Assembly: GCA_002591725.1 (NCBI GenBank)
Contig: NJAL01000004.1
Coordinates: 248,046-312,045, forward strand
Direction: 5' to 3'
From: Candidatus Didemnitutus mandela
GTDB taxonomy: Bacteria > Verrucomicrobiota > Verrucomicrobiia > Opitutales > Opitutaceae
Length of the DNA: 64,000 nt
Notes under the pieces: generated by a model
Told to the model about the DNA's origin: nothing
Database searches by the model: none
The model's input: only the letters and a program-made list of their open reading frames with translations
Part shown: positions 34,505 to 62,090 of the stretch, in pieces
Position numbering within the stretch: position 1 is the stretch's first letter
Layout of the letters: the number at the start of each line of letters is the position of its first letter
Translations under genes and position numbers: made by a program

Positions 34505-35284
34505 TCATACTGTGAGCGTGGGTGCTTCGGACGCAGCTACAAGCGGTTTCCCCTCTCCGATGGAGGCGCAATAGATTTCAGCGAAGGCGGTGTCTTGGCG
34601 CAGACTGAGCTTTTTTAGACGCGTGAGCTCGAGCACAGCGAGAAAAGTTGTGATGAGACGCCGCAGGGCAACTTCGTGTTCGAATAGGCTGGAAAAAGTA
34701 AACTCGCGATGGGTCGAGGCGCATTGTAGCACATATTCCATTTGGTTGGCGACAGTCACTTGCTCAGCGTGGATTTCGCCGCCGCGGAGCTTTTCCGAGA
34801 GACGGCGCAGCACGAGATTGAATTTGTTCCACAGTTCGATGCGGTCGACATGTTTTAGCGGCCGATCCGAGATGGGGATGAACGAGGGCGCGGATCGACT
34901 GAGCATGTTTTGGGCGTTGTAAGCCATCCTACCGAGATTCTGCGCAGCTTCCTTGAATTTTTTATATTGAATGAGGTGATGTACGAACTCCCAGCACGAG
35001 CCCAATTCCTCCTCATCGCCACTTATATCGGCCGTTTGCTTGTGTTTGGGCAGAAGCATCCGACTTTTGATTTCCATTAGCGTGGCTGCCATGACGAAAA
35101 AATTACCAGCAGTCTCGAGCTGGAATTTTTTCATCGCATAAAGGATTTCTAGATACTGGCGCATTATGGATTCGATCGGGATGTCGTAGATGTCGAGCTC
35201 ATTTTTCCGGACTAGGAAAAGGAGCAGGTCCAACGGACCTTCGTAGATGGAAAGCTTAATGCGGTAATTGTCTTCGGAAACCAC
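34505..35284 (-). CDS. scpA: Segregation and condensation protein A
   Basis: A 259-residue kleisin subunit that links the two heads of the SMC dimer and organises the chromosome for segregation. The N-terminus YRIKLSIYEGPLDLLLFLVR is diagnostic. Next come the helix-turn region IYDIPIESIMRQYLEIL and LETAGNFFVMAATLMEIKSRMLLP. The C-terminal winged helix shows VALRRLITTFLAVLELTRLKKL. Length is typical. scpB, the usual partner, is not in this window. Upstream on the same strand are the remains of rsmB and lptD, downstream a dead small gene, so scpA is the only intact member of a former operon. Confidence 0.95.
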   Translation of the reverse strand: MVSEDNYRIKLSIYEGPLDLLLFLVRKNELDIYDIPIESIMRQYLEILYAMKKFQLETAGNFFVMAATLMEIKSRMLLPKHKQTADISGDEEELGSCWEFVHHLIQYKKFKEAAQNLGRMAYNAQNMLSRSAPSFIPISDRPLKHVDRIELWNKFNLVLRRLSEKLRGGEIHAEQVTVANQMEYVLQCASTHREFTFSSLFEHEVALRRLITTFLAVLELTRLKKLSLRQDTAFAEIYCASIGEGKPLVAASEAPTLTV

Positions 35285-35359: not shown

Positions 35360-36555
35360 TTAGCTGTTCCGGTGCAGCACGACGATGCAGAACCCGTCGG
35401 TGTCGTAAAACGATGGAACAGCGTATAGCCGAAGGTGTGTGGCTTTGTCCGTGGCAACGAAGGCGCGGATTGAGCGGAAAGTGTGTGTTCGCTTTCAAGA
35501 AAGGCGCCGACGACATCCCAGTTTTGAGTTCGATTGAGCGATTAGGCGGCATAGACCAGCTGGCCGACCGTGTTGGAAGTTGTTGTAAGGACTTCGAGTT
35601 GCAGACGCGCGAAGTCCTTCAGCGCCGGTGGGCGCGCCCCGCCGCCAGGTGGCTGTTGCCGAAATAGGGAACACCAACCAGCCCACCGTCGTAATTCTCG
35701 CGTTGGGGCCGGCTGGTATCAACATTCACTAGTTTGGTACGTTGGGCGCGTTCGCGAAGCTTGTCGAGAACGTCGATTCGCGTGTCGAGTATGTCGGCGC
35801 TGCCAGAGGGATCGACGAAGTTGGCGAGCTGAAGCGTTTTCCCGCCAGCGCAGGCATCAAGCCAATACTCGCCTACACTTGCGGTCGCGTGGTGCAGGAC
35901 GAACTGGGAGCCGAGGTCCTGAATTTTGCAAAACTCGCGTCGATAGCTTCCCGTATTTACGACCTCGGCATTTGATGGCAAGAAAACCGCGTCTGGCTGC
36001 AAAAACGATCTTTGGGGATTCCAGCTGCGGGTGCGAAATTTTTCGAGGACTATTCCCCGGGTGTGCGGCTTTCAGCCTGATCCAAAGTGGGGCGCGTGAA
36101 TTGAGGTTGACGAGTTCTTCGGGCTCGAAAGCATTGGAGTATTGTGCGCGAAGTTACTCGGGTAACAGCACAGCGAGCAAAATTTGTGGTCCATTTGGGA
36201 ACCGAGAAAAGCCGATTTTTGCTCAAGGTTAGCATTGGTTGCTGGTGTAGGCCAATCGCCGAGCTCTGTCGTGCGGAAAGCGGCTTGTATCGGGAAATCC
36301 GGCGCAAGGTGGGCGGTGCAGCGCATAGCCAGCCTGGAGAGTTGCGACGAACAGGGGCTTTATTCAGGACAAAAAGCGGATCGCAGTGTAGATCAGCTCG
36401 CGATAAAGGTCGGCGGTCGCGTGAGCTGAAGGCGTGGTTGCAGCTGAGGAGCTTCCTTGGCGGCACGTACTGCTGCCTTTGCGCAAGTCTGGAAGGATCT
36501 AACTAAGCAACTGCAGAAATGTCCAATTCTTGTTGGCGGTGATGCGTCGATTCAT
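35360..36555 (-). pseudogene. rsmB: 16S rRNA m5C methyltransferase (RsmB/Sun family), degraded
   Basis: An ATG at 36555 starts a remnant of about 398 codons, the normal length. The N-terminal NusB-like part survives in pieces (HAFSSRDRR, then LYRELIYTAIRF in another frame). The methyltransferase domain is clearer: EYWLDACAGGKTLQLANFV (family: 'vLDaCAaPGGKTthlael'), ERAQRTKLVNV and NYDGGLVGVPYFG (family: 'fD.iLlDaPCSg'). The catalytic Cys of the PC motif reads PY. The end is YDTDGFCIVVLHRNS. Frameshifts and stops are many. The start lies 20 bases after the lptD stop, and scpA follows, so all three formed one operon. Confidence 0.82.
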
Positions 36556-36574
36556 GGTTCATGCTGGATAGCGG

Positions 36575-38610
36575 TCAGAATTTCAGAAACTTGGCTTCGA
36601 CGCTGAAGCCGAAGGAATTTTTTTGGCGATTGCTCTCGGGAAAGGAAAGCTCATAATAGATTGTCCAAGTCTGACCGACGTGCTGGCATAAGGCGTAGCT
36701 TTGTTGGTTGAAAGCTCGTATAGCGCAATTTGGTTAAGATGTCGAAAACTTCGTTTAGCCGCTGGGAATAGTTGAAGAGGGACTCCTGGTAGTTGTCGCG
36801 GAGGTAGTGGGAGACGAAACGAAGATTCCAGGCTTTTTGATCCATAATGCTGATGCTGAAGTTGAGTTCACTTTGTTCCGTCTGGTGGAAATCGTAGCGC
36901 TGGCAGGCTTCCAATTGAAGCCACGGGGTTGGTGAGAAGGTTGCTTCTGTATAGAGATCGGAGAGCGGCCGGATTCCGGGATTGTGCGAAAAGCGATAAT
37001 CTGTTGAAAAGTTTAAAGTGGCGAGATCGCGCGAGCAGTAACTCTTGCTGCGGGTTTGTAGCGTGTTGTTCAAACTAATGCGCAGGGTGTCGATCCGGCT
37101 GAACTCATCGACATTGCGCTGGTCGGCGATCGAAAAGGGTTCCATGTAAGTAGTGAACGTATCCCGGTCAATGGTAGGAATGTAAGCGGCGCCATCGGCG
37201 GCTTTCGGCGAGTAGCGATAGGATATTTTGGGTTCGAATAGATGGCGCAAGCCATCGATTTTCCAAAGAGGGCTCTTGTAATCGAAGGTGCCGATGGCGC
37301 GGAGTGTTGCATCAAAGCCGGTCTCGCCTATGGTGCGCATGTAGGTGTTGCGTCCATTCACGGCGTTTACGTAATAGATGACACGTCCACCGGCAACCGG
37401 CGTGATACTGAGCGACTTGGTGGGGGTGAAAGGACGTTCGAGGCCGTAGTAAATGTCTATGCGGGTGGATCGGAGTTGCAGTAGGCCCCCCCATGGGCGT
37501 CCTGCTGTTCAAGTTCCGCGAAACTGGCGTTAAATCGCTCGTAAACGCCGCCGCCAATCGCTGTGGGCAGCAGGTCGAAACGGATCTCAGGTTGCCGCTT
37601 CTGGTCGAGGTAGCGGCGATTAGGGGACAAGCGTGCGAAGGCGCTGAGGACGTAGTTTTCCCCCGCGTAGCTTCCTTCAAGAAACGAGTCAGGCTCCTGC
37701 TGCGAATAAAACCATCTCGGGCGATATTCGCGGACTATCGCCGGATCGCTCCAATAACTGAATGATCCTTGGAGGTCGATGTGGCCGTGGATGCGCTGTT
37801 TGTGTTCCCACTCGAAATATCCACGGTTTTGGGGAATGCCATTCCAGATGGCATCAGCCAGCCGGTCGCCGTGATCGCTGATATAGCCGGAGCGAACATA
37901 GCCGCGCAAAAAATCGCCATCGCTGTCGCTTGAGGCATAAGTGGCGGCTGGCCCGATCATAATTCCGCGTTTGCTGTAGACGCTGACGTCGCCCCCGACC
38001 GTGAGATTCCTGCTGATGGGCAAACGGACTTTTACTTTGGAAAATATGCCGAGGTTGTCACGAAACCCAGCGCGGCTGGTGAGGTAGGAAACGTGCTCGG
38101 CCTGCAGGTCGTACTGATAGCTTGGCAATGGCAAAAATGAGCGCCGAGAAAACCGAGGCGGAGTCCTTCGCCCGAGAGGATCTTGCCGTGCTCGTAGATG
38201 ATTTTATTTGCAGTAATTGATGGAGCATACCGGGTGTTTTCGCGGAAGAAGGTCGTGGCGCCAATCAGCTCCATGTGATCGAGGGTTCCGTCCATCGTGT
38301 AGATCGGGAAAACACCGAGGCGTGGGCCTTTTACGTGCAGCGCTCCGGTGACTAGGTTGTAGGTGCCTTCATCGGCGACTAGCCGGAAATTACCCTTAGT
38401 GAGAACCATATGGCCCTTAGCGGTGGCGACTTTGCTCTTCTGGTTGAGCTGGATTTGATCGGCGGCGAGGCCCACGTCGCCGTAGGCGACATGGGCGTTT
38501 CCCTCGAGAGCGACCACCCCGGTGTTCGTATCGAAAGAGGTGGACTTGGCCGTGGCTGTAGGCATGCGGTCTGTACCTGTAGCGAGACAGGCTAGTGAAG
38601 TAGCAAGCAT
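36575..38610 (-). pseudogene. lptD: LPS-assembly outer membrane protein, three frameshifts but otherwise open
   Basis: About 678 codons follow the LptD/OstA order. An N-terminal OstA domain shows NTGVVALEGNAHVAYGDVGL, LAADQIQLNQKSKVATAKGH and DEGTYNLVTGALHVKGPRLG. A beta-barrel follows (LFEPKISYRYSP, TIYYELSFPESNRQKNSFGF) and the protein ends AKFLKF, with an aromatic last residue. Three shifts separate four open segments. One lies at an A run at 38133-38137, where a sixth base restores the frame. One lies at a C run at 37486-37492, where an eighth base restores it. The third is near 36715. No internal stop is seen within the corrected frames. LptD inserts LPS into the outer membrane and is normally essential, so either LPS export is being lost or the frame is rescued. 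Confidence 0.85.
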
Positions 38611-38814
38611 GAGCAGTTCATGATGAAGAAAAAAACATCACACTAGGCTACTAGATTGTTAAGAGGTGCGAGCTGTCGCAATGTAAATCCCAAGGAGGAG
38701 CTTTCCCGGGAAAATTCTTCGTGTTTTATCTAGATGCGCGTTTTGTGCACGAACAGCGTCGATGGTTGCCTTTTGTCCTGTTATTAGGCTTCAAGGGCTC
38801 GAAGTGAATTTTTA

Positions 38815-40785
38815 GGAAATTATCAGCCTCAGCCGCACGACTGGTTAGATATTCATGCGGCTTCCGTCGAAGGCAAGTGGGGAACCGTGGTGAGAGCTTT
38901 TCTGCGCAACACTGCCTAAATGTTGGATCGTCGACTTCAGCTCTCCGCGGTGTTTCTGATGCACTAGCTTTTCCGGCCGATGGATTCTTCTAAGGTTTTA
39001 TCAAAGGTCGTGATGTCCTTCGACATCAGCTGCGGCGTGAAAAGTACATGGGGGATGATCAAGTTTACAACGGCTACTCCTTTCTGCCGATGCTTTCGGG
39101 GTTGCGATTTACTTGTTTAACGAGTGACAGGAATGGAGTAACTATAAAAAATTGGCAGCTTACGTGTGCATCTTGGGCTATGTGCCCGGCCTAGGCTTTT
39201 CGGCCTGGGTGCTGTTTGGCAGCGCATGTTTCACTGGTAGAAAATTTCAACAATGGGGCTGGACACGAGCCCGCTTGGCGCCTCCGGTGTCTGGAGTTGT
39301 TCGCCCCAGGCTTGGTCGAGGGGGCGACTTGGGACAAGGGGCTGGCCATATGAGAAATTAGGATGAAAACGACTCCGTATGGCGCGTACTTCGAGGCCTC
39401 GCCCAAACAAACCTCGATGTCTGGGACAACCCGTGCCATTCCAGTGGAGTGGCATGGGGTAGATGAGCTGGTACCGGGCGATTTGACCAACCCATGTTAG
39501 TTTTCGAATTTCATCTCGGTTTGTGGTGGCGCAAATCCGATGAAGATGGCGCCAGCTGGATTATTGCGAACTCCTGCTGCTGCTCACGGGCTAGCGGGAA
39601 CATCAAGTGACCGGGTATTTTTGCGCTCACGCATCGCTTCGGCACACCGGCGGATCCCCAGTTTTTGTTAATTACTTGCATTGACGTGGCATCGATGTGC
39701 TGCTCGATTTTGTGTCGGTGCACTTCCCACGAGATGTTTTCGCGCTGGTGCAAGTCGATGATACGCGCCCTTGCGAACGCGAAACTTTCTAGCTTAGAAT
39801 TTGGGGCGTTGGTCTTTTAATCACGGCTGGCATAAGATGTGGTGTGCTTTTGTTGCCAGCGCGTTTTCTTCACTGGACCACTATCGCATCCGACAGGCTG
39901 CGCATGGATGCGGTAGCGGAATCGCTCCTGTGGTGAAGGACAACGGCACCCGAATTGCTACGGCGGTGTCGAGAACTTCGAGGAGACTGGTTTCATCTAC
40001 GAGACCAAAATGATCGTGGACGAACTTCATCTCGGAACAGTGGTGATCGCGGAGGAATCGACCTCATTTACGCTCGTGAGCCGGGGCGGTCGGGGACGGT
40101 GGTTTTGGTTTCGGCCATAAGTGGAACATGGAGCTGATGTACGATCCACTGTCCCGGAAAACCATCTACAACAAGTTAAGATTACCAATAGTCGGGAAAA
40201 CTTCATCACCGTCTATTCGCACAACGAGGTGGTGCACCTAGAAAAGCTTGATATTTGATAAATGCCCGGGCTTCTTTTTCGATAAAGCAGCGAACCTGCT
40301 GGCATTTTACGTTTGTATTCTGGACCTATCCGGGTAAATGCCTTTTATGGGCGCCGAATTTGGTCAGCGGCGGAAGTGGAACAAAGATATGAGCTTCTAT
40401 TAGCATTTTCTTGAATAGCCGCAGCAGCAAGGTTATAAACAGCTCATGGCCAATATCAACAGCCTGTAACGCGAACTCGCGCTTGGTGCTAGGGATTTCG
40501 ATCTCCGCGAGTTTTCGCTAGGTAAATTGTATGGCCCAAAATAGAACATAATCAGTTTTATTCGCGTCACGCCGGTCGTGTGTTAAGACTATCGATATTG
40601 GCATGCCGCAGCCAGGTTACTGGCAAGAAACTTCCAACACCGACTCGATGCGCTATTACGACAATGATATGGGAAACTATGGCGGACTAGCGATGGAGCT
40701 GGATGTGTGCGACGTCAGGTGGCAGTCGCTAGTATTGATATTGACGCTTCCCGGCCTAAGCACGCTTGCCTTTTACTGGACGGGG
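38815..40785 (+). pseudogene. glgB: 1,4-alpha-glucan branching enzyme, degraded
   Basis: The plus strand carries nearly the whole GlgB order across all frames. Blocks include PHDWLDIHAASVEGKWGTVV, RAFLRNTA, AYVCILGYVPGLGFSAWVL, VSLVENFNNG and KTTPYGAYFEASPKQTS. The catalytic region follows: RGIDVLLDFVSVHFPRDVFA, HKWNMELMYDPLSRKTIYNK and FMGAEFGQRRKWN. The C-terminal beta-sandwich shows MPQPGYWQETSNTDS and SLVLILTLPGLSTLAFYW. Frames change at least eight times and stops are frequent. The enzyme would have added 1,6 branches to glycogen, so storage glycogen of normal structure is probably no longer made. Its 3' end overlaps the end of the convergent secreted-protein gene. Confidence 0.88.
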
Positions 40786-42525: not shown

Positions 42526-45370
42526 GTTATGGCCAGCTGGTTGCAGGTGATAGCTGATTAGGTCAGGTCGGTAGGTACAGGTTCGCCGTCGAGAGCCAGA
42601 GTGCTCTTGGTGCTTATGTGCGATTATGTAATTTATATGGGAGAGTTATAGGGGGGAGGCGCGTGGCGACTTCGTGTTACAAACGTTACATCCTCAAAAA
42701 TTTTCCGGCGATGATAAGCAGTATGCCCGGGGCAGACGGACCACAAAGGCCCCTCAGAAAATGGCCCGCGGCTTTCCGATAACGAACGTCGAGGATTTCC
42801 CTCGATGTTGGTTCGGCTATCAGCGAGTCGACGACCAGGGCGTCAGTTGGGGTGAAATGTAGAAATTTGATCGCACAGCCGGTCGTGATCTTGAAGGGCA
42901 GCGCGGCGGTCCAATTCCAGCAGCAATCGAGGAATGAGCCGATGATGTTGCTTGAACATGTCTGGAAAGTCTTGTCATGCGGTCTAGTGCGCCACAAGCA
43001 AAAATGCGGATGCGAGGTCCTTTTGTCGTTGGCCTGGCGACAACCAAAGCAGACGCCAGACTCCGTTTGGTAAAAAAGCTTCTTGGAGACTGCGCTATTC
43101 TATGTGTACATAGGTACCGATTTTCGTGCAAAATAGAAGCTTAAAAAGTTGTGACACCAAAGAAATTGGCTGGGTTTTGACCTCGCAACTTTCCTCCCTT
43201 TCCCGGCATTCTATGGTGAAATTCGTGCTGCATACATTGCCGAATCTCCTTCATCAATTACAAAAAACGAGGAATTCCCCCTTCATCGTCAATGTTGCTG
43301 TGTTGCTGGAAAAACGGAAGCTGTGCGTGCAGCCTTAGACTTCTCTTAGACTTTTATACGCAGCCCCGCGCCAGTGTCTCACTGCTCAAGCTCAGCCGCT
43401 GGAACACAATCAACGCTAACCGCGAGGGAGTATTTTGTTGGATTCCCGATTCTGGGACCACAGTGGTGCGGGGCCTGATCATCAAGGACATGGTTGGAGA
43501 AAAGAATGGTGAAGAAGCTTTTGCGCTGGTTGGATCTCGTGCTGACGATACTCAACTTTGTCGACTTGGAGGGCTAACATCAACCGGATTCCAGGGGGGC
43601 GTCTTAGTCTTCTTTCAGGAACAACTTGTGGAAGCGGAGGCTGATTGCGATGTAGTGCTTCCCGAATGTCCGCTGAATACTTTGCGGGCTTTGGAAAATG
43701 GGATTTTTGTAGGGAATCTACATACTCGCCAATCCCGATGTTTTGAGCCTCGTCGGCTTTACGTTGTTGCTTGAAAAGCTTCTGCGATTTCAGTAAGGAT
43801 CGGAGCGTTTTTGCACGGCGGCGATAGGGAGGACCTTCTGCCCAGGGCGCACGGCATCGTCTTAAATCCGGTCAAGGCCGACGTGGATATCGAGGTGCTG
43901 AAGATACGAATGCAGCGCCGGTTGAATCAATTCAAAGCGCAGAAGTGTGGTGTGGAATCGTACCGAAAAGCTTTCGATGAAGATCCTCGATGCGATGGTT
44001 GTGCAGCAAGCGGTGATGTTTAAGCTGCCGGTGTTTTCGTCGGCCAATAGAACGTCGAGACTGGTAACGTGGCGCACGACTACTTGCAACTTGCCGACGA
44101 AATCATCGCACATGCTCCAGTTCACATGCTCCAGTTCTGGAGAGAACCTATGTCCCATCAAGCCACTGAAGGTTGGAATAATACGCGGAAGAAATGCCGT
44201 CACTCCATTATGGTCTACTGTCTACTATTTGGCTGACAAAGCCGTTTACCAGCCTCGCGCAGAACCTCGACCTCGCAGATGGGCCGCTGACCGGCCCGGG
44301 CAAGAAGTTAGCAAGGTATTTCGATTACAACTATTCCAGATTATTTCTGCTTCCAGAAGTTGGTAGGTGCGGTGAACGGGCCGAACAATTGATCGCAATC
44401 GCCAAGGAAACGCTGGTGTTTGACGATCCGTTTTGCGATATGATCTCCCAGATCGAGGAAGCAGTAGAACGGGGAAACTCCATTTTGAGGGCGTTCGCCT
44501 GGCTGAAAACCCAGGAGGATTACCCATTTTCGCTGGTCTTTTTTGAGCGATGGCATCCGCTCCGCTTGGTCTGACGATCAGAAGGCTTGTCCACGGTGGA
44601 AAAATTTGCTACGCTCAGCTAGTGAGGTTCTCACGCGCTATTGTTCTTGGTGGCAATTTTCGAATTCTATATTTTTACCAGCGGAGGTGAAACTGGCACT
44701 GTAGGAATTCCATGCCATTTAGCATAGGAGCAATTGGTCTGTATTTTCCAGAGGTTTTGCGACTGGCGTTTCTGAAATTTTTCAGGATAAACTGACCCTC
44801 GTCCGGGCCATCGGTGTCAATGTTCTGGTGGGCGAAAAGATGCTGCCCAAGAATTGGAATGCGCTTGAACGCGACAAGCTGGTGGCCCGTTACCGTACGA
44901 GAGAAGTTGAAACTTTGGCTTGGTTTGCGGCTTCTCAGCAGATCTGGTTGGAACCCCTGTGCTGGCCCGTCGAATCGACTCTGATCTCTCATGCTGGTGG
45001 CCGACCTGTTGCAAGAAGGAATTGAGGCCAAATTGTTTGCGGCAGCGCTCACGGGAAAGGAAGATCTAGCGAAGCGGAGGAGAAAAGGTTTTTTGTCCTG
45101 TTGGTTTGGTCGCTAATCATGGCTGCGAAGAATTCTTCTCCGTTCAACCTGTCGTTTTAGAGAGGCATATTCCCCTTCGCGACGCCGGCTTTTGGCGCTC
45201 TTTCGTTCCTGTGCACTGCTGGGGGGTGATGCTCTCTCCTGCTGCGACGTGGTAGCAATTTGCCCTTAGGTGAGGTTGCAGAGGGAATCATCACACCGGA
45301 TATTTGTGTGGTGAGGAGTTGAGGCAGGGGAAGCCCAGAAGCGCTCTCCATATTTTGGAAACTCGGATAG
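42526..45370. other. Long decayed stretch, unidentified
   Basis: No intact gene. Three stretches look like eroded protein: plus strand 43290-43770 (EEAFALVGSRADDTQLCRLG and later DCDVVLPECPLNTLRALENG), plus strand 44220-44570 (GKKLARYFDYNYSRLFLLPE, ETLVFDDPFCDMISQIEEAV), and plus strand 44780-45030 (LTLVRAIGVNVLVGEKMLPK). None matches a family I can name with confidence. The 44220-44570 segment is the longest uninterrupted one and keeps a natural amino-acid mix. Confidence 0.4.
44111..44138. repeat. Tandem duplication of 14 bases
   Basis: ACATGCTCCAGTTC occurs twice, back to back, at 44111-44124 and 44125-44138. A 14-base gain breaks any reading frame, so this looks like one of the lesions that decay the surrounding gene. 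Confidence 0.85.
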
Positions 45371-51204: not shown

Positions 51205-53415
51205 AACTCTTCCTCACTATTCCGAAATTGGTTGGCGATTTGCATTATACTTTTCGATTCTTGTAGAAAAGCAAAGGTACTACCGCCATAATTCTGATCA
51301 CGTTCGCCTTGTGCACTGTTGCCACGACTGCAATTTTCCCGATAATCTATTCGTTGCTGCTCAAACTGCTGCTATTCCGCAATCCGGCGGCTATTGTGGT
51401 GCTCTATAATTGAGCAAAGAAAGCCAGCCTAGAATCACATGCCAGTGAATGTGCTGCTCTACCTCGACTACTCGCAAAACGCTCGCCTTCTTTGAAAATA
51501 TCGTGCTTTTGACCTTGTTTTTGGAATGCTGTAAGAGCCCGCTTTTTTTAGTTTTTCACCAAGTAGTAAGGTAAGATAACCCCGGTGAGGACAAAGGTGA
51601 TCGTCTTCACTCAATTCTATTGGCGGACCCAATTTAGCAAAAGCGCTGGTGTGTTAGGATGCTAGGCTTGCATCTACGACGAAGTACAAAAATGCGCCGC
51701 GGCTGATGTGGAAACCAAGGCGTTGGAGAAATGCTACGTCTCGATCGATAGATCGCCGGCCCCCAGCGAAAAAACTTTCCGACCGTTCGGGCATGGCAAT
51801 GAACGTTAGAGGCATACAATAGCGGATCTATCCAGTGAGCGCAAATGTGCACAGTCCAAGTTCGCTATCTGTTCTGCCCTTGGTACGATCGCCCGTTAGC
51901 TTTTTCTCTAGAGTCTGCTGCTGGCCATGCTCGGCCCCATGTTGGGAGTCGAGCATGATCAGTAGAACGTTCAATTGTGACTAATTCCTATTTACACAAA
52001 ATGCTGCTATAATCTTTACAAGCATTGCTGGACTGGCGGATTTTGGCCTTTCCAGTGGTATTGTTGCTGCTTGTTAGCATGCTTATTGAATTTATTGTCT
52101 GTGTTCCAAAGCCTACGGGCCAACTTGGAAAAGGTTAATCTAGCACAGCTCACCTAGCGCTTCGTCCGGGAAAGACGTCTGTGCCTTGGGCAGCGTGCTT
52201 ATGATGGCGTAGGTGGCAGTGGTCCTGATGCTTCTCGCCGAGCCGAACCTGTACCGACCTATTAATTCGTAGCTTTATGGAAGCGTTGCAGGCTGACTCC
52301 GCCCTTAACTTCAAGAATGTGGCGACAGCTCGCATGGGGCCCCTGCCCGCGGGCTTATTTCGTGAGCGGCAAGGTGGCCAACAAAACCAGCGGGCGCATA
52401 TTGCAGACGGTGTTCAAGATTCCGGAGCCAGTTCAGTTGCGCTCTGTTTTGCTATGTCGTTTTAAGGTAGTTTTCCGACTCTAACGCGTTCACGTTAAAT
52501 AAATAACATCTTTTCTCCGGGTTCGCTGCAGCCTGCGGTGTTTCTCGTGGCTGTGACACCTGGTTATTTTTAGATTATGGGGCTGAAACTTTTCGAAGGC
52601 TGTTTCTACGAGAAACCGATCTGGTTCCGAGTAAACAGTACTCCGTCGTTGGCCATAATTTCGAGAAAATTCTTTCCCGAAAGGTTCGGCAAGTTGGCAA
52701 ATAGTTTTTCTTCAGGGGCTTTCCGGACAAACCATAAAGGGTTGCTGGTTATCATTGGCGTTGTGAAAAGACGTGCTGTAAAGTGGCGTGGAAGAGAAGA
52801 ACTGGTCTCTCTTAACCTGCCAGATCATAGAGGGCGGCTGTTCGGAGAACAATAGTTCTTTCCCCTCCGTACAAACCGTCCATCGGGCGTCATGATCGCG
52901 ACGCTGTACGAAAAGGTAAAGTTTATCAACCCGGCGATCGCCTTTTTCGATGCGAATAGACCCGAAAAGGACGTCAGCGGTTCGTTTGATGACCGGCGTT
53001 CAGTTATGATGTTGTTGCTTGCGGCATTTACGGGGCTAGCGCTGTTCTTGTCTGCCTTCGGTATCTTACGGTGTGTGTGCCTACGACGTTTGGCAGCACA
53101 CAAAGGAAGTCGTCGGTGTGTACGGGGGGCGATTGGAGCATAGCCAGCGCAGATCGTCGGGCTGATTTTGAAGCAGGGAATTTGGAAAACGGGAAACGGC
53201 ATAGTGATCGGCCTCGTTGGTGTGCTGTTGTTGAGTCACTCGATGAGAGGTTTCCCTTTAGAGGTAAAGACTGGCCGATCCGGCCGTCTACGTTGTCGTT
53301 TTTGTTGCCGTGGCGGTGCTGGGCGGATTTTTTTCTCGCCTTGTGCGCACCGAAAATCAGTTCGATCGTTTGCGCTTCGGAGCGAGCGAATCAAAGCTTT
53401 TTTCACTGTGTCTTT
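51205..53415 (+). pseudogene. Third MacB/FtsX-family ABC permease, degraded
   Basis: This plus-strand copy is the best preserved of the three. In order: LVGDLHYTFRFL, then TTAIFPIIYSLLLKLLLFRN and PAAIVVLYN (first helix and exit), FAICSALGTIAR and SLLLAMLGPMLGV (second membrane block). LDWRILAFPVVLLLLVSML and LLIRSFMEALQADSALNFKN come next. The late extracytoplasmic domain shows GLKLFEGCFYEKP and SLAIISRKFFPERFGKL. The end shows RSVMMLLLAAFTGLALFLSA and DPAVYVVVFVAVAVLGGFFS. All have direct counterparts in the family. Stops and frameshifts break it into at least seven pieces. It is convergent with alaS. Confidence 0.82.
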
Positions 53416-56320: not shown

Positions 56321-56959
56321 GTGAAAATCCACGTGCTGCCCTCCGGTCCCATCAAGACGATCGGTTACTTATTGACCAATAAAAAGTTAGGAGAAGCGTT
56401 GTTAATCGATTCGCCGGGCGACATCCTGGCAAAAATCCAGCCGACGCTGGCGAAGGAATGCTGTCGGCTAAAAGAGCTTTGGCTCACACACGGCCACTGG
56501 GATCATACTCAGGATTCCGCAAAGTTGAAACGCGAACTTGGTGTGCGCGTGTTCGCGCATCGGGCCGATCAGAAGATGATCGAGACTCCAGAAATCATGG
56601 AAGGCTTCATGAACGCGCGGCTGGGCCTCGAGGGGGTGCAAGTTGATCGTTGGATTGAACAGAGCGACCAGTTGCCGGCGCTTGGTTTGAAATTTGAGGT
56701 GAGGCACGTACCGGGGCATTGTTCGGGCAACGTTTTGTTTTATACCGCAGCCGCCAAGCTCGTGTTTGTGGGCGATGCTCTTTTCAACCGCGGCATTGGC
56801 CGCTGGGACTTGCCCGGTGGAAGCTTTCAAGTGTTAGCTAAGTCGATTCGCGAACAGATTTACACGTTGCCAGAGGAGACAATTGTTTTCCCGGGTCACG
56901 GCCAGCGTACGACGGTCGAGGCCGAAAAACATGGCAACCCTTACGTAGCGGCCGTCTGA
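56321..56959 (+). CDS. MBL-fold metallohydrolase, glyoxalase II-like
   Basis: A 212-residue metallo-beta-lactamase-fold hydrolase. The zinc motif HGHWDH is at residues 57-62, then VPGHCSGNVLFY, a metal-bridging Asp in LVFVGDALFNRGIGRWDLPG, and a late ligand in VFPGHGQRTT. This pattern fits the small YcbL-like group that hydrolyses thioesters such as S-lactoylglutathione. It starts with GTG at 56321, preceded by an AAGGATGA-like ribosome site. Exact substrate is not readable. The gene is clean, and ribD, downstream on the same strand, is dead. Confidence 0.9.
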   Translation: MKIHVLPSGPIKTIGYLLTNKKLGEALLIDSPGDILAKIQPTLAKECCRLKELWLTHGHWDHTQDSAKLKRELGVRVFAHRADQKMIETPEIMEGFMNARLGLEGVQVDRWIEQSDQLPALGLKFEVRHVPGHCSGNVLFYTAAAKLVFVGDALFNRGIGRWDLPGGSFQVLAKSIREQIYTLPEETIVFPGHGQRTTVEAEKHGNPYVAAV

Positions 56960-57009
56960 AGGGGGTTCACTTTATTTCAACGCCATGAACGACCAGCCAC
57001 GAGTTTTTC

Positions 57010-58123
57010 ATGCGCCGCTCTTTGGGTGTTGTGCGCATGGCATGGGGCAACACGCATCCGAATCCGGTGGTAGGAGCGCTTGCGGTGGAAAACGGAGAAA
57101 TTGTGGCCGAAGTTTTTATGCGCGTGCTGGCGATCCCGTAGGCCGAGGTACAGGCATTGCGTGCACTAGGTCGAAAACCGGTGGAGGATGCGATTCTGTA
57201 CATGACGCTGGAGCCGTGCTGCACGCACGGTCGCACGTCGCTATATACGGGGACGGATAATCGCTAATTGCTGCTGGAGTCTTGTGCGTAGTAATTGGTG
57301 CGTGGTGCGACCGATCCGAGCCCAGCGAACACTAACCATAAGTTTAAATATATTGTGCGCGGCTGGCTGGTGTCAAGGTGGTTTCGAGCTTATCCGCAGA
57401 GGATTGTGCGGACCTGAACTTGATCTTCAATCACTGGATCACTAAGGAAATACCGCTTCTGGCGGAAAAGTTTGCGGTGACGTTCGACGGCAAGGTGGCG
57501 ACGTGGACCGGCGACTCGCAATGGATTACCGGCGAGGCGGCGCGCGCGGATGCGCATCGCTGGTGGCAGTATTTCCCGATTATCGCAGTCGACACTGGCA
57601 CGGTGATGGTCGACAATCTGCGACTGACCGCGCGGTGAGTGATGCTCGGTGCGCTTCACCTTCGATTGGTTGTTGTGCACTGTTTTGAATAAACCGAAAG
57701 CGGCGGTTTATACTGGCGAGCTGCACGAGCATACGATCGTCGTCTATCTCCTATCTCTATACCATACGGCAGACTTTGGCTACGTGCGCAAGCTGAATTC
57801 GATGGGCGTTTGCATGTGGATGCTGGAATCGACGGCGACCAAGGTGAGCTTTGCGTGTTTTCGGCAACGTTGCGCTGCGGATGAAATGATAGGCGTGTTT
57901 TTCGAAGGTGGCGCGCAGCTAGCTGTAGGGGCGCTAGCTTGATTATTTTTCTCGTATCAGGTTCCGGTGCTTTTTGCAGACGACAAAGGGCGGAGCGTGT
58001 TGGGAGGACTGTGCACGGAAGAACTGGGAAACGTAGTGCGCTTTAGATCGTGTTCGACACGAGTCGTTTGATGACGACGTGCTGGTGAGTGGGGTCGTGC
58101 GCTATCCTGAAAATGGTGGTTGA
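57010..58123 (+). pseudogene. ribD: Riboflavin biosynthesis protein RibD, degraded
   Basis: From ATG 57010 the frame spells WGNTHPNPVVGALAVENGEI, the deaminase start, and YMTLEPCCTHGRTS with the zinc PCCTHGRT motif. The catalytic HAE is destroyed: the sequence reads P-stop-AEVQALRALGR. The reductase domain follows in other frames: ADLNLIFNHWITKEIPLLAE, VTFDGKVATWTGDSQWITGE and AARADAHRWWQYFPIIAVDT, then FFEGGAQLAVGALA and DDVLVSGVVRYPENGG before TGA at 58121. Both enzymatic halves are broken by stops and shifts. RibD performs two early steps of riboflavin synthesis, so the cell must import flavin or have another copy. Confidence 0.88.
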
Positions 58124-58155
58124 CGAGGCTTGTTCACGTGGCGGGTGATGGCGAA

Positions 58156-58752: not shown

Positions 58753-58999
58753 AATCAAATCTGCTGAATTCTCGGCTCGGCCTCCAGAAAAAGGGATCAA
58801 TTGGAGAGCGCCTTAATTGTGCCTTTCAGGCTGTTGTTTTTAATTACAGCTAGCTGTGCGATTCAATAGAATAGGCTCGACCAGCACGCCGTATCTGGCC
58901 GGCTGCAGACTTTGGATAAAAACCTCCAATAATGACCGTTCCAGACCAGATGCGGATGCTCTATTTTTCTTTTTGGCGATTTCGCTGGAGAATATCGCG

Positions 59000-61900
59000 A
59001 CTATCGAGCCGCGGATGTAGAGTCTGCCGCCCCAGTCTTTGAACAGGTGGAGCTAGTTGTGCACGCTGCGACTCTTCTGGTGGAAATCGGTGGATACAAT
59101 GCTGGCAAGAAGATATGTGAAGACCTCGGTTGCGGTCGAAGTAAGGTTTTACTGTGGCTGTCGAACTGCTGGCTCCGCTGGTGTTGGCTTCTTGAAAAAG
59201 GAGTGGCTTGAGATAGCCGGCTTGTTTTGGTGTCGTCCATGTTGTTTCTCGAGCTGGGGCTGGTGGTCTGCCAGAAGCTGGAGTAGGGAGCGCTCGACGT
59301 GTTGGAGTGATTTTGGCGCTCAAAGTGTCGTACCAGCCGGTCGATTGAATGAAAGTTATAAGCTATTCGGCTCGTTGTGTTGCCACTGCCGCTGCGCGTA
59401 TAGACGGGTTTTGAAAAATGGTGATCTCGTCGGATATGACTGCGGAAAAACACGAAATTGTCGACTCTGGATAGCGACCGCTATAGCTGCCGGTTTCGGT
59501 TGAATTACTATTCGGATTGATTCTCCCGTTTGTGCTCAAGTAGCTAAAAACGTAGCATCGTTCGCTGCGAAACCCAACCCCGCTTTGTACCCGGAGGTTG
59601 TGATAGAGGCGACTGGCCAGCATCCCTTGAATGAGATTGATGAGACGTACTCCGGAGTTGAGCTGGGCAGGAACATAAGAGGAGTTCTTTACGCTTTCCA
59701 AGCGTACTTTCCGTTTCTGCAGAGTCGATGTAAACTATTTGATGATGTCGAGCCAAGATGCCGTGTGCCCATAGAGAAGAGCGATATCGAGGGGACTGGT
59801 ATGATCGGTAGCCGGATTGAAAGTGGCAAAATACATTCGGGAGAGATCTGACACCATTGACGTGGTCGGGCGGCCAACCAGTATGCGCTTTGGTTGTTGT
59901 TGGGTGACATAATGGTGCTTCTGTAGCTGTTCTGTTTGAGCCAGTAAAAAACACGATCAATTGTGATTGAGCCTTTGGTGACCCGAATCGCAGCAGTGTC
60001 TTTGGCAATGTCTGAAAGAGGTTGAAATTCCAGTTAGCCAGAAAAGGCTGTAGCTGGCGCCATTCCCATAGTAACCGTTACTGATGAACGTTGGCTTTGG
60101 TGCCACCAAAACCAATATTTAGAGATTTCCGCCAAAGTGTAAATATTGAGCCATCCAGTTAGGCGTTGTTATCTACGCCATCTACGTAAATGTGTTTTCG
60201 GTGTAAACGGAAGTGAAAAGAAAGCCTACAGTCGTGCTCCTGAAATGCACTACGAAACGATTGCAAAGAGAGCGAAGCTACTACGGTGCTAGCTCCTGCG
60301 GAATTTAATTGTAAAAGGGTACAATCTGCTAATTGATCAGCTTTTTGGGGGGTGGAAGTTGTCCGGCGAGGCATTGGGTGATGCTAAATCCATTTATACC
60401 TTGTGATGGGTGTATAGTTGTGATTTGATTTATCAGTCGAGGAAGTATAGAATTTACTCTACTCATGTCGTAGTAGTTGGTGATAGGCCGTTTCGGTGAC
60501 CGTAAAATGAAATATTCGGAGAAGCTAGTTATTGAAACTCCGCTAACGTTTTTTTAGAGCTGCTGACAACGATAGAGACCGGCGCGCGGGACGAGATTTG
60601 TGATTGCTATAGGACTAGGACGGAACCGGTGTTGACGAAGTCGTTGCAGGAAAACAGAACTTTAACCCAAGACTGGCGATTGATGCCGATACATTGAAAA
60701 CGGAGGCGCTTTCAGTTGGTGGCATTGGGCCGGCTGGGATTAAAGACCGTGCTGGTGGTCGCGCTGTTTAGCGTCCGATAGACCATCATTTCGAAACGTG
60801 TTATTCCAAATCTGTTTTTGAGATGGGGGCACGGATAAAGTTTATTGGAAAAGGAACGGGGAAAAAGGATGTTCAGTGTTTCTACTGGAGCGTCGAAAGT
60901 TGTAGAAAAGACATCTTGGAAAGTGTAGATGTTGCTCAAAATAGGAAGGTGTGGTGCCGTAAGCGTATCCTATGTTGGTGGGATCGACCATACAGCTTTT
61001 CGGAATGCGGAGTACTTCTTAATATCAGCTGGATGAGGTATCGATGTGGTGGTGTATTTTACATAGGGTTTTACTTGGCCCGAAGCTGGGCTGGCTGGGC
61101 AGCACTGCTTCGTAGCAGGGTGTGCATGTTCACGGTCGCTGTGTTGGTGCAAGTTTTTTCTGGATTGGCAATAATCTAGAAGCTGGCTCGGTGAAAGAGT
61201 TTACTTTGGATGATTCCGGCAAGTGTCAGTGTTGTCCGCCGAGGGAGCCTAAAAAACGTAGTAACCGTTGTTGTCCGAGACGTAATCGATCCTTAGGAAT
61301 ACCAGTTTGGTGACTTCGTGGATGCTTGTGCGGAGATTGCTGGTATAATAGATGTTCGTGGCAAAGGGGTTGAACTTGGTTTGCTCGTTCGTCGGTTGCT
61401 GTGGCCGTATTTATTGGTTGCGCCGTAGTGTTTTAGATAGAGTGGGTAAGAAACAGTAGTGAGGAGTGGTCGTGTTTGTTATTAAAAAAGTGTATCTTTG
61501 TAGTTGGTGTTGGTGTAAAAGCTGCTGGTGGCTGTCACGCGGTCGGTAAAGTGAACCGTGTTGGGAAAGCCTATAACGGCGGTGGGCGATGAAATTGCTA
61601 TTGGCGTGGACGGGACCGCTGATGAATATGCTTGCACCTGGGAAAAGCTCGAGGCTCTGGTTGTAAAAAATGGCGAGCAGAAACAAGGAAATCTTGTTCG
61701 CCTCTAGTTGTTGTTCGGTGTAAGCGGTTGCTGAGTCGGCTGCTGGATATGCTATGGTCGATTTGATAATGATAGGCTACATTGCCTGTAGCGACTTGGG
61801 GAGTGTGTTTTGGGCTGGTCGTGTCGCTCACGAGTGCAAAATTGGTCGAGTCGGTTAGCCCAGCGTAGGCTTCGGTGTCCGAGAACGCCGAATGTTTTTT

Positions 61901-62090
61901 GGTTAGCCGGGTGTTGGGTGGTTAGGTGAGTCGCGTTGAGACCGGAGAAAACTGGCGGGGTTGAGGTTGCGGACACGCTGGACGGGGGGCTGTCGCTGGC
62001 GGCGTGTTGTGTACCATGTTGCCGGTGAGCAAAGCTAACTAAGACAAAGCTGTGTTGGCTGAGAAGATATGGGGTTAGTCGTTTTTATGG
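59000..62090 (-). pseudogene. Large PilX-like pilus assembly protein, degraded
   Basis: The minus strand downstream of two pilin-like remnants carries many short pieces consistent with one long secreted protein. The clearest is LELFPGASIFISGPVHANSN at about 61600-61650, fitting a pattern 'leL.PG....i.GpVHsN.n' that I know from PilX-type proteins next to type IV pilin genes in this lineage. Later pieces include VISDEITIFQNPS and SGVGFRSERCYVFSYLS. Stops and shifts are dense over 3 kb. The family name is from recall and context; I cannot exclude that the last kilobase is a different gene. Confidence 0.4.

Follow-up and report, generated by a model that had tools for sequence, protein, structure and literature searches.

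The lptD gene of 'Ca. Didemnitutus mandela', an uncultured verrucomicrobial symbiont of a Lissoclinum tunicate (PMC5698493), is very probably a genuine gene recently inactivated in an eroding, Illumina-sequenced genome, in which LPS maturation and export have likewise recently been lost. That this genome carries many LPS pseudogenes is already known from PMC5698493, where 226 pseudogenes are counted and LPS biosynthesis is among the pathways said to contain many of them; the main text of that paper contains none of the terms 'lptD', 'lpt', 'lpx', 'kdtA', 'lipid A' or 'outer membrane', and its supplementary tables may list these genes. The state of the sequence suggests that the cell makes no functional LptD and that mature LPS would be missing from the cell surface. 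Ordinary gene loss of recent date, not a concealed form of rescue, seems the better description of the case.

The disrupted lptD gene and its neighbours

The window, the whole stretch of 64,000 nucleotides that was analysed, comprises bases 248046-312045 of contig C5 (319,645 bases) in a genome of 2,171,216 bases on 10 contigs. Its GC content is 51.6%, and 51.93% is reported for the genome (PMC5698493). Searching with relatives' LptD by tblastn, supported by intact relatives, we found lptD homology at 36578-38613 on the minus strand, in four segments. The gene, its frame changes and its nearest neighbours are as follows (window coordinates):

34505..35284, minus strand: scpA, intact control (66% identity)
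35362..36864, minus strand: RsmB-like rRNA methyltransferase, old pseudogene (9 frame changes, 5 stops)
36578..36712, minus strand: lptD segment 4, C-terminal end (tblastn)
36713..36716, minus strand: third lptD frame change, a net shortening of about 11 nt against relatives, outside any run (frameshift-aware alignment)
36720..37472, minus strand: lptD segment 3, barrel part, third frame (Pfam LptD_2; identity to relative G005)
37473..37504, minus strand: zone of the second lptD frame change, with the C7 run 37486-37492 inside it (frameshift-aware alignment)
37496..38131, minus strand (homology from 38137 down to about 37505-37481): lptD segment 2, second frame (tblastn; frameshift-aware alignment)
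38133..38137, minus strand: A5 run (T5 on the coding strand), first lptD frame change (frameshift-aware alignment, four relatives)
38134..38613, minus strand: lptD segment 1, N-terminal LptA/OstA-like part (tblastn of relatives' LptD; Pfam LptD_N)
38723..40774, plus strand: GlgB-like branching enzyme, old pseudogene (17 frame changes, 9 stops)

Both the N-terminal LptA/OstA-like part and the barrel part are recognised by profile and by relatives, with a Pfam LptD_N match within 38032-38610 (25.3 bits), and an LptD_2 match (33.1 bits) and 58% identity to the G005 relative in segment 3. The latter segment is matched in 36 of the 37 genomes searched besides the symbiont's own, with no stop within any match; the one genome without a match is G010. 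Segment 4 shows 44-56% identity over 44-45 residues (eleven same-genus relatives tried), and conservation is poor, as judged by eye in alignments to four relatives, in the region corresponding to their signal peptide. In the intact G008 relative, LptD (PF04453) scores above its cut-off and LptD_2 below it, with no LptD_N match. A PF04453 profile search of the symbiont genome gave no match because lptD is split there.

Four named relatives that were found by sequence are Opitutia, Opitutus and Opitutaceae MAGs. The initial annotation had described a whole lptD with no internal stop in its corrected frames, and as to stops this holds: we found none in frame against any of the four relatives used as references, nor in two further alignments. 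What the gene lacks is a single open reading frame of full length, frameshift-aware alignment giving three frame changes with three of the four references and four with the remaining one. The first change had been attributed to the A run at 38133-38137, and that run of five is indeed present, with the change placed there in all four alignments. For the second, one missing base in the C run had been proposed. A run of seven does lie within the zone of this change, but the loss of one base is not established: depending on the reference, the change is placed at 37480, 37483, 37495, or 37504 plus 37476, and the relatives, which have no run at this site, fix neither its place nor its size. The figure of about 11 nt for the third change is a hand count from alignments to relatives.

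The control alignment of scpA contains one stop, which is the gene's own end, and the alignment of the RsmB-like pseudogene overlaps the end of lptD. Further along the window we observed a ParA-like ATPase pseudogene and an adjoining broken gene whose relative has no Pfam match (43241-44120 and 43831-44927), a MacB-like permease pseudogene (51760-53387; 15 frame changes, 8 stops), a ribD-like pseudogene (56658-58131) that agrees with a remark on riboflavin genes in PMC5698493, and a gene remnant with 32 frame changes and 7 stops (58805-61977) whose relative is a 1470-aa frame without a Pfam match. A Mg-chelatase-like pseudogene of the ChlI/ComM type lies on another contig (G000 C8:6922-8016) and has 12 supported frame changes and no supported stop.

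LPS synthesis and export genes across the genome

The initial annotation had looked to the lpx and lpt genes elsewhere in the genome to decide between loss and rescue, and they give a split answer, with lpxA, lpxC, lpxD and lpxB open, and lpxK, kdtA and the Lpt genes broken or, for lptB, damaged. Our LPS inventory covers lpxA, lpxC, lpxD, lpxB, lpxK, kdtA, kdsC and six Lpt genes (lptA, lptB, lptC, lptD, lptF and lptG), and every one of these six has frame changes. Two LptF/LptG-family permeases are each split over two frames, and alignment of the one on contig C4 to a relative shows three frame changes and no stops; which of the two is lptF and which lptG we take as a label only. We found one stop and two frame changes in lptA, and one frame change in lptC. 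A PF03968 profile search of the genome matched lptD only, so the broken lptA was located by synteny; relatives' LptC and LptA pass Pfam cut-offs but not NCBIfam cut-offs. The lptB gene (L050:6288-7043; G000 C8:86287-87042) is open and has two frame changes 35 nt apart, between which about 11 codons immediately ahead of the ABC signature are read in a different frame. Adjoining it is hprK (L050:5221-6208; G000 C8), with 5-6 frame changes, about 73% identity to a relative and no stop inside its coding part. Beyond transport, lpxK and kdtA are split over frames (judged partly by eye, with no reference): the first piece of lpxK has one tool-reported TGA that by eye lies beyond the frame change, and two of the three frame changes in kdtA were seen by eye only. 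Five stops and five frame changes mark kdsC.

For the open genes the comparison was with profiles and, in the case of LpxA, LpxC, LpxB and LpxD, also with PDB sequences, rather than with same-genus references. These genes encode LpxA, an LpxC-FabZ protein (495 aa), LpxD (359 aa), LpxB (398 aa; NCBIfam score 173.2, below the 190.25 cut-off) and BamA (828 aa), together with LolCE- and LolD-like proteins that score below their NCBIfam cut-offs. Judged by eye against motifs, the catalytic residues of LpxC and LpxA look kept, an impression to which we give no weight as evidence. All four early lpx genes are open versus none of eight later and export genes (Fisher p=0.002, with lptB counted as broken and kdsC left out; p=0.010 with lptB counted as open, 1/8), a comparison chosen after seeing the data.

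That LPS transport has only just been lost, one of the readings first offered, is supported by the other LPS genes: both permeases, lptA, lptC, lpxK and kdtA are all broken, and lptB has suffered damage, with few lesions in any of them. In the explanation we propose, frame changes in lpxK, in kdtA and in all six Lpt genes would mark a recent loss of LPS maturation and export, in a symbiont that keeps BamA and Lol-like transporters and whose genes for four early lipid A enzymes, the first ones covered (LpxA, LpxC-FabZ, LpxD and LpxB), are open.

Age of the lesions and rival explanations

Of 92 gene regions surveyed against relatives' references, 44 had one or more supported lesions; the remaining 48, with 18,419 aligned codons, had none. 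The lptD lesions disrupt the gene and are absent both from relatives and from the surveyed housekeeping genes of the same genome, as befits a recent pseudogene. By their few lesions and well-kept sequence, lptD, the C4 permease, hprK, lptA, lptB and lptC are young. The absence of stops in lptD bounds its neutral substitution at d < 0.039 per site, and its protein branch, taken relative to the span between two relatives (ratio 1.28), is no longer than in the intact rph (1.75) and scpA (3.36, with another second relative); the ratios for other genes are 2.04 for lptB, 2.93 for hprK, 1.03 for lptA and 0.90 for lptC.

The kinds of lesion are less easily accommodated. The six young pseudogenes carry 16 frame changes and one stop, compared to 236 frame changes and 109 stops in the other 31 regions with lesions, so that stops make up 1/17 versus 109/345 lesions (Fisher p=0.028, under a grouping made after seeing the data); adding lptF, lpxK and kdtA, which were scored by eye with no reference, gives 21 to 1 and p=0.007. 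This count omits seven genes in which every supported lesion falls at the start or upstream of it (6 frame changes and 2 stops; C5 236697, 239002, 243785, 253006 and 280930, and C4 9786 and 34341), on the basis of the alignment for four, an open ORF for two and position alone for one (C4 34341). This post hoc shortage of stops runs contrary to plain neutral decay and counts against recent loss, as do the open lpxA, lpxC, lpxD and lpxB, contrary to what wholesale loss predicts; a recent rise in the indel rate is one possible source of the shortage. For lptD itself, three lesions without a stop are unremarkable because they are expected about one time in three at the 109/345 share. Supported frame changes lie near runs of at least 5 more often than expected at random places (38/258 versus 24.8 expected; Poisson p=0.008), a modest enrichment, and therefore the position of two of the three lptD changes at or near runs is not special.

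Rescue by transcriptional or ribosomal slippage at the runs, restoring some full-length LptD as at the poly(A) tracts of insect endosymbionts, had also been proposed, and the evidence turned against it. Such rescue is described for Blochmannia and Buchnera (PMC3017870). In its favour, two of the three lptD changes lie at or near runs; about 5 of 16 frame changes in the LPS genes likewise fall at runs of 5-7 (two in lptD, one in lptC at an A/T run of six, and two in the C4 permease at T5 and G7), and frame changes outnumber stops in the young pseudogenes. However, about 11 of the 16, with kdsC left out, fall outside runs of at least 5, so rescue would be needed at many sites that have nothing in common, and one of the lptA lesions is a stop. 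The lptD runs are also short, at 5 and 7 compared to the tracts of at least 9, and 11 adenines, in Blochmannia (PMC3017870), and according to PMC5574713 transcription insertions rise exponentially with run length and, in E. coli and Buchnera transcripts, 100% of those within runs were in runs of A or T, although transcription deletions occur outside runs too (PMC5574713). A/T runs of equal or greater length occur in intact genes: ten such genes in the window contain 57 A/T runs of 5-7, and lptD itself has T7 and A6 runs without any frame change. In place of the single change in a long A/T tract that marks poly(A)-type slippage, lptD has three changes, two of them associated with these short runs (one of G/C) and the third a deletion of about 11 nt. 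Slippage rescue of lptD is thus unlikely, and we give it very little probability.

Length variation of the runs within the symbiont population, by phase variation or standing polymorphism, would leave lptD on in some cells. A run such as this C7 could plausibly vary in length, and another LPS gene is changed at a G7 run, but G/C runs of at least 7 are not rare (29 in 433,608 bases counted), the third lptD change lies outside any repeat and other LPS genes have lesions outside runs, all of which makes such variation improbable. Assembly or sequencing error behind the lptD frame changes is, of these accounts, the one to which we give least credence: the first contig set had low coverage (PMC5698493), but the reads were Illumina HiSeq 2x101 assembled with SPAdes --careful (PMC5698493), and random error would not concentrate in the Lpt genes, which are struck repeatedly in a survey in which more than half of the regions are clean.

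Possible order of LPS dismantling

Under recent gene loss, the most striking point is the order in which the pathway may have come apart, as judged from this comparison of genes: the early lipid A enzymes are open and LpxK onward is broken, which would be the toxic order in Acinetobacter. A. baumannii can live free of LPS when LpxA, LpxC or LpxD is lost, whereas depletion of LpxH or LpxK is toxic as intermediates accumulate (PMC5555675, PMC4985137). In contrast to those tolerated losses, 'Ca. Didemnitutus mandela' has the opposite order, with early enzymes open and lpxK broken. Among the papers listed by narrow literature searches, none describes an order with early genes open and lpxK broken.

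Other symbionts offer partial parallels. Stink-bug symbionts have likewise lost LPS genes as their genomes shrank, some retaining remnants such as lpxA or lpxB, and with exceptions they keep the lipid IVA pathway above 1 Mb and lose it in smaller genomes (PMC8032781); in 'Ca. Didemnitutus mandela', unlike these, a genome of more than 2 Mb has four early enzymes open and lpxK, kdtA and export broken. Blochmannia, too, has frame changes in genes without other visible decay, where the indels lie in long poly(A) or poly(T) tracts of AT-rich genomes (PMC3017870), whereas here each LPS gene has at most three changes, mostly outside runs, in a window of 52% GC.

The early lpx genes may simply lag behind in decay, and the FabZ fusion gives the LpxC gene its own reason to stay. 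It is also conceivable, though doubtful, that the symbiont goes on producing a truncated precursor of lipid A (the LpxB product), keeps an outer membrane without LPS export and tolerates the state that is toxic to Acinetobacter; the early enzymes would then serve some separate purpose, or the precursor would be otherwise disposed of. On our preferred reading of recent gene loss, the loss of LPS export would have been caught in progress in a defensive symbiont with an open bamA, and the split between early and late genes makes the order of LPS dismantling a testable question.
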